NCBI RefSeq assembly: GCF_008727865.1
Contig: NZ_VTWU01000003.1
Coordinates: 434,001 to 498,000, forward strand
DNA: 64,000 nucleotides
Reading direction: 5' to 3'
Source: Hymenobacter busanensis
Lineage (GTDB): Bacteria; Bacteroidota; Bacteroidia; Cytophagales; Hymenobacteraceae
The translations under genes and the position numbers were made by a program. Of the stretch, positions 46,627-49,364 are shown in pieces (within the stretch, counting starts at the first letter, position 1; each line of letters opens with the position of its first letter). The notes beneath the pieces are model-generated. The model was not told the origin of the DNA. It did no database searches and was given only the letters and a program-made list of their open reading frames with translations.

Positions 46627-46656
46627 TTGTGCTTCTCGCCAAGTTGGATACTTTTG
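46627..46656 (+). promoter_or_regulatory. Consensus Bacteroidetes promoter
   Basis: TTG at 46627-46629, 19 bases, then TACTTTTG at 46649-46656. This is an exact fit to the Bacteroidetes sigma-A-type promoter (TTG-N19-20-TAnnTTTG). The transcription start is expected near 46663. It is the best promoter match in the window. Confidence 0.75.
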
Positions 46657-46662
46657 CGACGT

Positions 46663-46812
46663 GCTTCTGAATAATCAACATCGGATGAAGCGCAGAATGG
46701 CTCATCCGCCGGTTCTGCAACGGGGTCGAAACCCGTTTCCCTTCGTTGATTCCGTTTCGTTTTGCTGCTTTTGCCTCGTTCGCCGCCCGGTTGTTGCCGG
46801 AGCGGTTTTTTT
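46663..46812 (+). ncRNA. Candidate structured RNA (pseudoknot, hairpin, terminator)
   Basis: About 150 nt between a consensus promoter and a terminator. CGGATGA (46682-46688) pairs with TCATCCG (46702-46708). GCAGAA inside that loop (46692-46697) pairs with TTCTGC (46713-46718), giving an H-type pseudoknot. The next base starts a third helix AACGGG-GTCGAAA-CCCGTT (46719-46737) whose loop resembles a tRNA T-loop. A pyrimidine-rich stretch follows, then an 8-bp stem with T7 (46783-46812). No known RNA family is recognised; it could be a small RNA or an attenuator/riboswitch for the 45-aa ORF downstream. Confidence 0.5.
46783..46812 (+). terminator. Intrinsic terminator of the candidate RNA
   Basis: CCGCCCGG / CCGGAGCGG (8 bp with a bulged A), TTGTTG loop, T7 tail. 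Confidence 0.8.
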
Positions 46813-46892
46813 GTGTCCGATTGAGTCGGAGGCGAGGAGAAACAGCAGTCGGCGCTGACTCATTGCGCACATACCCCACCTCGTCCAACACA

Positions 46893-47030
46893 ATGGTACA
46901 AACCGCCACAACCGCCAAGGTTCAGAACCGCAACCTGACTGATTCGCCTGAGCGCATGGCTGCCATCAACGTGTGGGATGCCCTGCTGCGTCAAGGCATG
47001 TTCCTGACCAACCACGCCAACGCCATCTAG
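46893..47030 (+). CDS. 45-aa small protein of unknown function
   Basis: ATG to TAG with its own downstream terminator. It reads MVQTATTAKVQNRNL, DSPERMAAINVWDALLRQGM and ends NHANAI; a helix-forming soluble peptide without signal or membrane segment. It sits 80 bp after the terminator of the structured RNA, so it may be the gene that element controls. No family is recognised; conservation in relatives would decide whether it is real. Confidence 0.5.
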   Translation: MVQTATTAKVQNRNLTDSPERMAAINVWDALLRQGMFLTNHANAI

Positions 47031-47048
47031 CCCAGTCTTTTCCGAAAG

Positions 47049-47079
47049 GCCCGGTGCCCGCCGGGTCTTTTGTTTTTTT
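47049..47079 (+). terminator. Terminator after the 45-aa ORF
   Basis: CCCGG-TGCCCG-CCGGG stem then TCTTTTGTTTTTTT. It isolates the small gene from the pyrimidine genes. Confidence 0.8.
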
Positions 47080-47147: not shown

Positions 47148-48017
47148 ATGCAACTCGGACCTTCTTTGACGCTGCAAAATCCCGTTTGCCTCGCCGCCGC
47201 CCCCTGGCACTTGCCCGACGGCCTCGGCTACGAGCGACTCGGCGCCATTTTCACCAAAACCGTCATCATGGAGCCGCGCTCCGGCAGCCGCGGCGACGGC
47301 GTAATTCGCGTGGCCGACGCCTCGCTGCTTAACACCACCGACCGCCGCACCGACGGTGCCGAACAGCTGGTGCAGGAACAATTGCCGCGCCTGCGCCGCT
47401 ACGCCGTGCCCGTGCTGGTGAGCATCACGGCGCCCGGCATTCCTGGATTTCGAAAAATCGCCCGCTTCCTGGCTCGCGAAGCCGGCGGGCAGATTGCCGG
47501 AGTTGAAGTATACATCAGCAGCGCCACCACGCAAAAAGGCTTCGAGGTGACGCCGCGCTTCGTGCGCGAAGCCACCGAAGCCGTGCGCACCGAACTCGGC
47601 GCCGATGCTGCCGTGGTGGTGAAGCTGCCACCCTGGCCCGACCACATTCGGGCCTTGGCTGTGGGCGCGCAGGAAGGCGGCGCCTCGGCGCTGGCCGCCT
47701 GCAATACCTTGAAAGCCCTGCATATTCCGGCCCACGGCGAACCGCTGCTCGGTGGCCTCTCGGGCGAGGCCTTGCGGCCGATGGCCCTGCGCTGCGTGTA
47801 CGAGCTGGCCCACGACGAAAAGCTGACGTTGCCCGTTATTGGGACCGGCGGCATTTTCACGGCCCAGCACGTGAGCGACTACCTGCGCTGCGGCGCGGCC
47901 GCCGTGCAGGTAGCCACCGGCGAGTGGCTGGAGCCCGGCCTCACCGCCCGCCTCGCCGCCGAATGGGAGGAAACGGCTTCGTTCACCACCAATCCCGTCG
48001 GCACATGGAACAACTGA
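47148..48017 (+). CDS. pyrD: Dihydroorotate dehydrogenase-like protein, divergent
   Basis: 289 residues. The fold is that of class 1B PyrD: NPVCLAA near the N terminus, LGAIFTKTV (FMN/substrate Lys37), VVVKLPPW, ACNTLKA, GGLSGEALRPMALRCVYEL, PVIGTGGI and the phosphate-binding AAAVQVATG. But the catalytic loop that normally reads N-x-SCPN is YISSATTQ here (Tyr122, Ser125), so the usual Asn, Cys and Pro-Asn are absent, and the early ASGTFG motif is AAAPWH. Either a Ser-based variant or a non-standard activity. It overlaps pyrF by 13 bp, tying it to pyrimidine synthesis. Confidence 0.7.
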   Translation: MQLGPSLTLQNPVCLAAAPWHLPDGLGYERLGAIFTKTVIMEPRSGSRGDGVIRVADASLLNTTDRRTDGAEQLVQEQLPRLRRYAVPVLVSITAPGIPGFRKIARFLAREAGGQIAGVEVYISSATTQKGFEVTPRFVREATEAVRTELGADAAVVVKLPPWPDHIRALAVGAQEGGASALAACNTLKALHIPAHGEPLLGGLSGEALRPMALRCVYELAHDEKLTLPVIGTGGIFTAQHVSDYLRCGAAAVQVATGEWLEPGLTARLAAEWEETASFTTNPVGTWNN

Positions 48018-48784
48018 TACGCCGCGCCCAAGCCGCCGGCTCGCTGCTCTGCGTGGGCCTCGACCCCGTGGGCACCTCGGAAACCGAAGTAGCCGCCCGC
48101 CTGCACGGCGTGGTGCAGCAAACCGCCGAGTTTGCCGCCGCCTTTAAACCCAACTTGGCCTTCTTCCTCTGCCGCCCCGATGGCGTAGCCCTGCTGCAGC
48201 GCCTGCGCGAGTGGATTCCGGCGGAGGTGCCCATGATTCTCGACGGCAAGTTCGGCGACATTGCCAACACCGCCGACCGCTACGCCGCCTTCGCCTACGA
48301 CCTCATTGGGGCCGACGGCGTGACGGTAAACCCGTACATGGGCGACGACGCCATCGTGCCCTTCGCCCGGCCCAACAAAGCCGTGTTCGTGCTGGCCAAA
48401 ACCTCGAACCAGCCTGCGCACTCCTGGCAGGACGAAGAGCTGGTGCGCGGCGGCACCGTCAGCGACTTTTCGGCCGACGTGGTGCAGACGCTCAGCCACG
48501 ACTACCCCGGCCTCGGCCTGGTAGTGGGCGCCACCCATGCCGAAGCCCTGGCGCATCTGCGCCGGCGTTGTCCGGAGCTGTGGTTTCTGGTGCCCGGCGT
48601 GGGTGCGCAGGGCGGCGACCTGGCCGCCACCGTGCACGCCGGCTGCCGCCCGTCCGACGGCCTCGGCCTGCTCATCAACACTTCCCGCAGCATCTGGCAG
48701 GCCGCCGACCCCGGCGCCGCCGCTCGCGACCTAACCCAACAAATCAATGCCCTACGCACCAAGCGCGTTTCAGACGCAGTTTGA
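48005..48784 (+). CDS. pyrF: Orotidine-5'-phosphate decarboxylase, type 2
   Basis: 259 residues from the ATG of MEQLIRRAQAAGSLLCVGLDP. Converts OMP to UMP, last step of the de novo pathway. The catalytic segment is ILDGKFGDIANTADRYA (Asp-x-Lys-x-x-Asp of the family); FKPNLAFF, GVTVNPYMGDDAI, VLAKTSNQ and LVPGVGAQGGD complete the barrel with the phosphate site. Length and spacing are those of the larger type 2 enzymes. It overlaps pyrD upstream (13 bp) and pyrE downstream (38 bp), so translation is coupled. Confidence 0.9.
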   Translation: MEQLIRRAQAAGSLLCVGLDPVGTSETEVAARLHGVVQQTAEFAAAFKPNLAFFLCRPDGVALLQRLREWIPAEVPMILDGKFGDIANTADRYAAFAYDLIGADGVTVNPYMGDDAIVPFARPNKAVFVLAKTSNQPAHSWQDEELVRGGTVSDFSADVVQTLSHDYPGLGLVVGATHAEALAHLRRRCPELWFLVPGVGAQGGDLAATVHAGCRPSDGLGLLINTSRSIWQAADPGAAARDLTQQINALRTKRVSDAV

Positions 48785-49364
48785 GCAACAGCTGCGCGGC
48801 GAAGACGCCCTGCTCAGCGGCCACTTCCGCTTGTCCTCCGGCCTGCACTCCGATACCTACGTGCAGTGCGCCCGGTTTCTGCGCCGCCCCGAGCTGGCCG
48901 CCCCGGCCCTGGCCGAACTGGCCCGGCTGATTCAGGAGGCCGGCCTGCAGCCCGATGTGGTAGTGGGCCCGGCCATGGGTGGCGTGGTGGTGAGCTACGA
49001 GCTGGCCCGGCAGCTGGGCACGCCTTCGCTCTTCACCGAACGCGACGCCGATACCAAAATGGTGCTGCGCCGCGGCTTCACGCTGGACCCAGGCCAGAAG
49101 ATCATCATTGCCGAAGACGTGGTGACGACCGGCAAATCGACGCTGGAAGTGGCGGCGGTGCTGCGGCAGATGGGCGTGGAAGTGCTGGGCGTAGCTTGCC
49201 TCATCGACCGCACCGGTGGCCGGCACGAACTCGACTTCCCGCTGTTTGCGTTGCTGCCGGTTCAGGCCGCCACGTACCAGCCCGAAACTTGTCCGCTCTG
49301 CGCCAAGGGCCTGCCCGCCGTGAAGCCCGGAAGTCGGCCCGACGCGGTGCCGGCGCTTGCGTAG
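48747..49364 (+). CDS. pyrE: Orotate phosphoribosyltransferase
   Basis: 205 residues. Adds PRPP ribose-phosphate to orotate, forming OMP, the substrate of the PyrF encoded just upstream. The PRPP motif KIIIAEDVVTTGKSTLE is complete; early FRLSSGLHSDTYVQC and FTERDADTKMVLRRGF (dimer-shared active-site loop) are canonical. A C-terminal PETCPLCAKGLPAVKPGSR tail carries a CPLC pair, seen in many orotate PRTases of this type. It begins 38 bp inside pyrF. Confidence 0.92.
   Translation: MPYAPSAFQTQFEQQLRGEDALLSGHFRLSSGLHSDTYVQCARFLRRPELAAPALAELARLIQEAGLQPDVVVGPAMGGVVVSYELARQLGTPSLFTERDADTKMVLRRGFTLDPGQKIIIAEDVVTTGKSTLEVAAVLRQMGVEVLGVACLIDRTGGRHELDFPLFALLPVQAATYQPETCPLCAKGLPAVKPGSRPDAVPALA

Follow-up and report, generated by a model that had tools for sequence, protein, structure and literature searches.

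A conserved leader with a reading frame open into its terminator precedes pyrimidine operons in two Hymenobacteraceae genera and is probably a UTP-sensing attenuator

The DNA analysed here, referred to as the window, is a stretch of 64,000 nucleotides from Hymenobacter busanensis (assembly GCF_008727865.1, contig NZ_VTWU01000003.1, positions 434,001 to 498,000 of the forward strand). It contains a leader of ~150 nt with its own promoter and its own terminator, followed in order by a 45-aa gene remnant, a dihydroorotate-dehydrogenase (DHOD)-like gene, pyrF, and a pyrE-like gene. The features of the locus are as follows.

46627-46656, + strand: promoter, with a TTG-like -33 element, N19, and the -7 box TACTTTTG (46649-46656)
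46661-46858, + strand: leader ORF, GTG to TGA, 65 codons, spanning the terminator; predicted to be leaderless, with a transcription start deduced from F. johnsoniae promoters (available text of PMC6847099)
46663-46691, + strand: possible hairpin P1, GCUUC (46663-46667) with GAAGC (46687-46691)
46692-46718, + strand: hairpin P3, GCAGAA (46692-46697) with UUCUGC (46713-46718)
46719-46737, + strand: hairpin P4, AACGGG (46719-46724) with CCCGUU (46732-46737)
46745-46782, + strand: U-rich, A-poor tract, the proposed UTP-sensitive pause region
46783-46812, + strand: intrinsic terminator (putative attenuator), CCGCCCGG / CCGGaGCGG and then T7; also found by a terminator scan
46893-47030, + strand: 45-aa ORF, remnant of an asnA-like (AsnRS-paralog) gene
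47043-47079, + strand: second terminator-like hairpin, between the remnant and DHOD
47148-48017, + strand: DHOD-like gene, the first intact gene of the operon (PF01180, E 1e-26)
47924-48784, + strand: pyrF, orotidine 5'-phosphate decarboxylase (PF00215, E 3.6e-23); the true start is probably later
48747-49364, + strand: pyrE-like phosphoribosyltransferase (PF00156, E 5.6e-16), named pyrE from its operon context

Several elements named in an initial annotation of this sequence were found as described: the TTG-N19-TACTTTTG promoter, the helix GCAGAA/TTCTGC, the hairpin AACGGG/CCCGTT, and the pyrimidine tract and terminator with T7. The RNA start, which had been placed near 46663, was nearly right, and promoter spacing predicts 46661. 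A single TANNTTTG-N4-RTG motif is present in the 64 kb window, but 29 of 100 shuffles also contain at least one. Folding energy is unexceptional, both for the stretch (z -1.31, 23/200 shuffles as stable) and for the leader alone (z -1.67, 13/200). Three terminator-like sites were detected in the stretch by the terminator scan, with 1.1 expected in shuffles.

Unlike its folding energy, two features of the element exceed chance: its conservation, the other seven genomes of the window's genus being 82-86% identical to it in DNA, and its reading frame, which remains open into the terminator and had gone unnoticed in the initial annotation. A search of 58 relatives at the DNA level recovered the element in 10 genomes, comprising all eight of the window's genus (its own genome counted) and two of another genus of the family. 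These ten copies were used to build an RNA model (R1), which included a second pseudoknot helix that was later dropped and which still found the copies. The model matched at two places in each of the 8/8 genomes of the window's genus, and in 119/120 genomes of the sister genus, the one miss being an 81%-complete genome; two or three copies are present in 97 of the 119 (counted from the list). Among 150 genomes of the family, 76 had matches, 74 from the two leader genera and two chance hits in genus g3 (L068 and L088; E 0.0013 and 0.0074), which show neither pyr genes nor such a leader and were left out of the counts. Removing these two and L069, a duplicate of L022, from the 78 loci (L011-L088) leaves 75 distinct elements. 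In the first ten copies the 5' end of copy A is invariant. A TAACATTTnnnGTAACA-like motif lies ~40-60 nt upstream of the -7 box and is kept in ten aligned copies (window, L002-L010); it may be a regulator site.

In all 75 elements a start codon, GTG (59) or ATG (16), lies exactly 4 nt after a TAnnTTTG-type box. The corresponding box of F. johnsoniae occupies -12 to -5, and its probable promoters have 4 or 5 nt from box to start, according to the accessible part of PMC6847099. Combined with this geometry, the 4-nt spacing predicts that the transcript begins at or next to the start codon, and the mRNA is thus predicted to be leaderless. Bacteroidota are described in the same paper as devoid of Shine-Dalgarno signals. 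Leaderless mRNAs are uncommon in the maps of the phylum: they make up 5.5% in F. psychrophilum (PMC9723704), and 5' UTRs shorter than 10 nt account for about 3.7% in B. thetaiotaomicron (PMC7366714).

The leader frame reaches the terminator in 68/75 elements, when a stop up to 15 nt before a loosely called hairpin start is allowed, and continues through the T run in 63/75. In the seven exceptions (L028, L030, L032, L036, L038, L047, L065) a stop after codon 8 overlaps the ATG of a frame that continues through the terminator. Frame +1 is open to the terminator in 0/75 and frame +2 in 34/75. A stricter count gave 66/75 leader frames open to the hairpin versus 26.6 expected from dinucleotide shuffles, the elements being related and thus not independent trials. 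The leader looks translated.

Downstream genes were identified by tblastn. On the same strand, pyrB follows 26 of the 75 elements, DHOD and/or pyrF follow 48, and neither follows one, placing 74/75 before pyr genes. Genomes mostly carry two unlinked copies, one before pyrB-pyrC and the other before an operon with DHOD, pyrF and pyrE, as in the window. Twelve of the 15 sister-genus genomes with a single leader were tested for pyrB, and 12/12 lacked it (E <= 1e-8); G032, G080 and G113 were outside this test, and the sole leader of G032 precedes pyrB. Locus L067, a third leader copy in genome G162, has a purE-like gene downstream instead of pyr genes. Near-complete Hymenobacter genomes in which pyrB was missing at E <= 1e-8 are G016, G020, G024, G028, G062, G086, G093, G097, G109, G123, G129 and G157; genomes of this kind are possibly pyrimidine auxotrophs or contain an unseen replacement.

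The 45-aa ORF that the initial annotation had placed after the RNA exists, but is a remnant of an asnA-like gene and not the target of the leader. Its residues 5-33 align with residues 14-42 of the AsnRS paralog (344 aa) encoded downstream of the L009 leader (BLASTP, 52% identity, E 8e-9), and a C-terminal likeness (LTNHANAI / LINRDNVI) was seen by eye only. The asnA-like gene is near full length in 9/48 loci and cut down or unseen in the rest; the leader persists despite this loss, as it should with the pyr genes as its target. The gene is often reduced to N- and/or C-terminal pieces or missing (window 46893-47030; L013-L018, L029-L048, L050, L062-L082), and repeated internal deletion sparing both ends is odd.

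An independent, trans-acting small RNA whose open frame is incidental would account for the element's own promoter and terminator, its retention next to a gene remnant in the window's genus, and the lack of variation at the 5' end of copy A (first ten copies). This reading is unlikely in view of the two unlinked copies, the same-strand position before pyr genes in 74/75 cases, the missing pyrB in every single-leader genome tested, and a frame that is open more often than shuffles predict. A small RNA had been one of two suggestions in the initial annotation, and the open frame leading into the terminator of this RNA speaks against it. The other suggestion was a ligand- or tRNA-sensing attenuator. 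Its attenuator part is the better guess, with a promoter-proximal leader and a terminator before a biosynthetic operon; its sensing part does not hold up well, as no known ligand- or tRNA-sensing family in Rfam matches.

Pairing and covariation were analysed in gap-free groups of 6, 16 and 28 elements, which together cover 50/75. Terminator stems are 97-100% paired in the three groups, P3 94-99% and P4 94-97%. The covariation that had been proposed as a check was seen in part: P3 has double changes at 4 pairs in the 16 sister-genus elements, a number that 3% of shuffles attain, and at no pair in the remaining groups; P4 is free of double changes. P1 forms when the window leader is folded and is 97% paired in the sister-genus consensus (16 elements), but is absent from the consensus of the other two groups. 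The pseudoknot claimed for the window did not survive comparison, since its 7-bp helix CGGATGA/TCATCCG is fully paired in the window only (1/8 genomes of the genus), with 2-4 of 7 pairs in the other seven, and was rejected as private to the window; its 6-bp partner is conserved (6/6 pairs in 8/8 genomes). The GTCGAAA loop, described as T-loop-like, is kept in 7/8 copies of the genus, and the sister genus has other loops, often GGAA. A second pseudoknot, AAUCAAC/GUUGAUU, drawn from the genus alignment, was also rejected, being absent from the consensus folds of the other two groups. No Rfam match at the curated threshold was found at the window element, in agreement with the earlier statement that no known family is recognised, or at the leaders of eight relatives' loci; a loose search gave one chance-level match on the other strand.

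The terminator 5' arm showed no conserved upstream pairing in consensus folds of 44 elements from two groups with the 3' arm removed, a procedure by which a weak or group-specific antiterminator could be missed. Direct occlusion by a ribosome therefore fits better than an antiterminator. Only some relatives share a second terminator-like hairpin, which lies ahead of DHOD or pyrF, either inside the asnA-like gene, directly behind it, or where that gene would be (window 47043-47079; L013, L014, L016, L029, L030, L040, L045, L051, L054, L060, L062, L065, L084).

It is improbable that P1, P3 and P4 form a metabolite-binding riboswitch or a protein-bound attenuator, sensing a pyrimidine compound or a protein and controlling the terminator without translation. 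The near-complete pairing of P3 and P4, the double changes of P3 in one group, and the position before genes of the pathway would suit such a device, and the covariation leaves room for a role of RNA structure. A sensor of this kind has to be set against the missing Rfam family, the absence of PyrR over cut-off from the leader genera, the lack of a conserved antiterminator, and a P1 that is not in the consensus of all groups, and it leaves the fixed start codon and the open frame unexplained. The element is unlikely to be either a pseudoknot riboswitch or a free small RNA, and both the observation and the interpretation of the initial annotation hold in part.

The encoded peptide is weakly constrained. 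In gap-free groups, covering 52/75 elements, pN/pS was 0.62 (8 elements), 0.64 (16) and 0.79 (28), with higher values for the off frames in the first two groups. In the third, the length-178 group, which includes three elements preceding DHOD and not pyrB (L076, L079, L086), one off frame is lower than the coding frame (0.71 versus 0.79), and there is no codon-position signal. Such values fit a leader in which the act of translation counts for more than the peptide it yields, or constraint acting on the RNA. A core VLR.DRKV recurs, and the C-terminal part varies with frame shifts, length changes that shift the frame being present in about ten elements.

These peptide data bear on two further explanations. 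Under a trp-type amino-acid attenuator, a ribosome stalled at Asn, Gln, His or Asp control codons would free an antiterminator; a leader peptide is predicted, its early residues in copy A include N, Q and H, and an asnA-like gene often lies downstream of that copy. This is very unlikely, as there is no run of any one codon, the first 30 codons contain on average 2.0, 1.7 and 0.8 Asn in the three groups, copy B peptides differ from those of copy A, no antiterminator was found in the consensus folds, and loci that have lost the asnA-like gene retain the pyr genes. Amino-acid attenuation was rejected because neither residue counts nor codon tables show control codons. In another reading, the terminated transcript, which lacks a stop codon, yields a functional small protein. 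The frame open through the T run in 63/75 and the recurring core would suit this, but it is highly improbable given the weak constraint, the C-terminal part that changes with frame shifts, and the close association with pyr operons. The weak peptide constraint and the pyr context also led to the dismissal of a type I toxin and of a rescue protein under the control of a stop-less mRNA.

We consider it likely that the element is a UTP-sensing, ribosome-coupled attenuator leader of the pyrBI type, controlling a pyrimidine operon in the place of PyrR; its UTP dependence and its coupling are predictions, the former drawn from the layout and the targets. The tract before the terminator is U-rich and A-poor: positions 46745-46784 contain 47.5% U and 2.5% A, and equally extreme values occur in 17 of 127,920 40-nt windows (both strands, 64 kb), 15 of them at this site. 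Over the 75 elements, U averages 0.48 in the tract and 0.19 across codons 1-26. C is abundant in the tract alongside U, so CTP could matter as well. RNA polymerase would start at ~46661, and a ribosome would load on the 5'-terminal GUG of the presumably leaderless transcript. With plentiful UTP, the polymerase would cross the U-rich tract fast, the ribosome would lag, and the terminator at 46783-46812 would form and end transcription. With UTP in short supply, the polymerase would slow in the tract and allow the ribosome to catch up and cover the terminator 5' arm, and transcription would continue into DHOD, pyrF and pyrE, presumably reading through the second hairpin. The second leader copy elsewhere in the genome would do the same for pyrB-pyrC.

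The sequence observations in favour of this attenuator are the conservation of the element, its place before pyr genes, the frame open into the terminator, the U-rich tract, and the absence of PyrR. Counting against it are the weak peptide constraint, with an off frame below the coding frame in the length-178 group, the openness of frame +2 in 34/75 elements, the kinship of the 75 elements, the frame-shifting lengths of about ten of them, the covariation of P3 in one group, the C content of the tract, the second hairpin before DHOD, and the purE-like context of L067.

The distribution of PyrR complements that of the leader. PyrR (NF003549 over cut-off) is present in 74/150 family genomes, all of genera g2, g3, g4 and g6, and no match over cut-off was found in either leader genus among the 150; weak sub-cut-off matches occur in five of nine leader-genus genomes examined. 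Leader and PyrR, each counted in a draw of 150 family genomes with the same handles, are mutually exclusive, and about two genomes have neither, one of them a 78%-complete assembly. A PyrR-dependent attenuator was rejected, as no PyrR over cut-off was found in the leader genera. In 12/12 genomes of other family genera, pyrR lies directly before pyrB on the same strand (from coordinates).

PyrB of the leader genera is 46-48% identical to PyrB of those 12 genomes. Among the best 80 of 245 public PyrB loci, 64 belong to Hymenobacter/Solirubrum, and the remaining 16 come from metagenome assemblies under the label Verrucomicrobia, Akkermansia or Akkermansiaceae (L170, L174, L197, L211, L216, L217, L219, L223, L225-L229, L233, L238, L240), 82-88% identical. 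Such identity across phyla is a sign of gene transfer. The box, the 4-nt spacing, the start codon and the terminator are found <=450 nt upstream of pyrB in 63/64 Hymenobacter/Solirubrum loci, and L209 has a leader with a variant box. Such a leader was found in 0/16 Verrucomicrobiota-labelled loci, with one weak hairpin in L174. A simple scan for a hairpin plus T run <=450 nt upstream of pyrB gave none in 12 loci of other family genera or in 54 loci of other families, the latter being those fetched from 62 order and 74 phylum genomes with matches outside the family or not yet counted. By eye, the pyrB start is directly preceded by an ORF ending in PQLR in the three Verrucomicrobiota-labelled loci inspected, and many Hymenobacter loci have a similar short tail at that place. 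In L063, leader B is separated from pyrB by an N-terminal asnA-like fragment and, after it, an insertion, an arrangement that would suit a leader B copied over from the asnA locus. The insertion has inverted ends, GTGTTGTTAAA ... TTTAACAACAC, like a small mobile element.

A historical scenario that we judge about equally probable as improbable begins with the loss of pyrR, together with the native pyrB, in the ancestor of the leader genera. A Verrucomicrobiota-type pyrB would then have been acquired and come to lie downstream of a copy of the leader, which was already in use at the resident pyr operon. The outcome would be a two-operon regulon in which a ribosome on a leaderless mRNA races the polymerase and shortage of U, perhaps C, decides. 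The direction of the pyrB transfer is inferred from sequence comparison.

Translation-coupled UTP attenuation is best known from enteric bacteria. As in pyrBI/PyrL of E. coli (NC_000913.3), the Hymenobacter element has a leader ORF before pyr genes, a U-rich tract, and an intrinsic terminator read in frame inside the ORF. Unlike pyrBI, its start codon lies at the predicted transcription start with no 5' leader expected, two operons carry the leader, and there is no T run after the start, as reiterative initiation would need. No similarity between the peptides is evident beyond the codons of the U run (AVFLCP against AFFCP, by eye). The likeness to E. coli pyrL is one of layout, and we assume convergence. 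The accessible texts describe pyrL as a 135-bp leader gene (PMC4824070), over which tight coupling is needed to prevent termination (PMC5021804), and whose pause seems independent of a hairpin (PMC9291695). The PyrR-controlled pyr operons of other family genera likewise place pyrimidine operons under one regulator, with pyrR before pyrB; the leader genera differ in lacking PyrR over cut-off and in having a pyrB of another lineage, 46-48% identical. The leader-peptide attenuators suggested for Flavobacterium psychrophilum are similar in combining a short ORF with attenuation before biosynthetic operons in Bacteroidota, and differ in serving amino-acid synthesis, no pyrimidine attenuator being named in the available text (PMC9723704). 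A literature search that covered few subscription papers turned up neither this element nor pyrBI-type control in Bacteroidota, and a description may be in print elsewhere.

If the proposed mechanism is true, a separate Bacteroidota version would show that UTP attenuation of this kind can arise on leaderless mRNAs, and it would imply close transcription-translation coupling in Bacteroidota. The mutual exclusion with PyrR, together with a foreign-type pyrB, would make this family a clear case of one control system replacing another, testable in culturable species.
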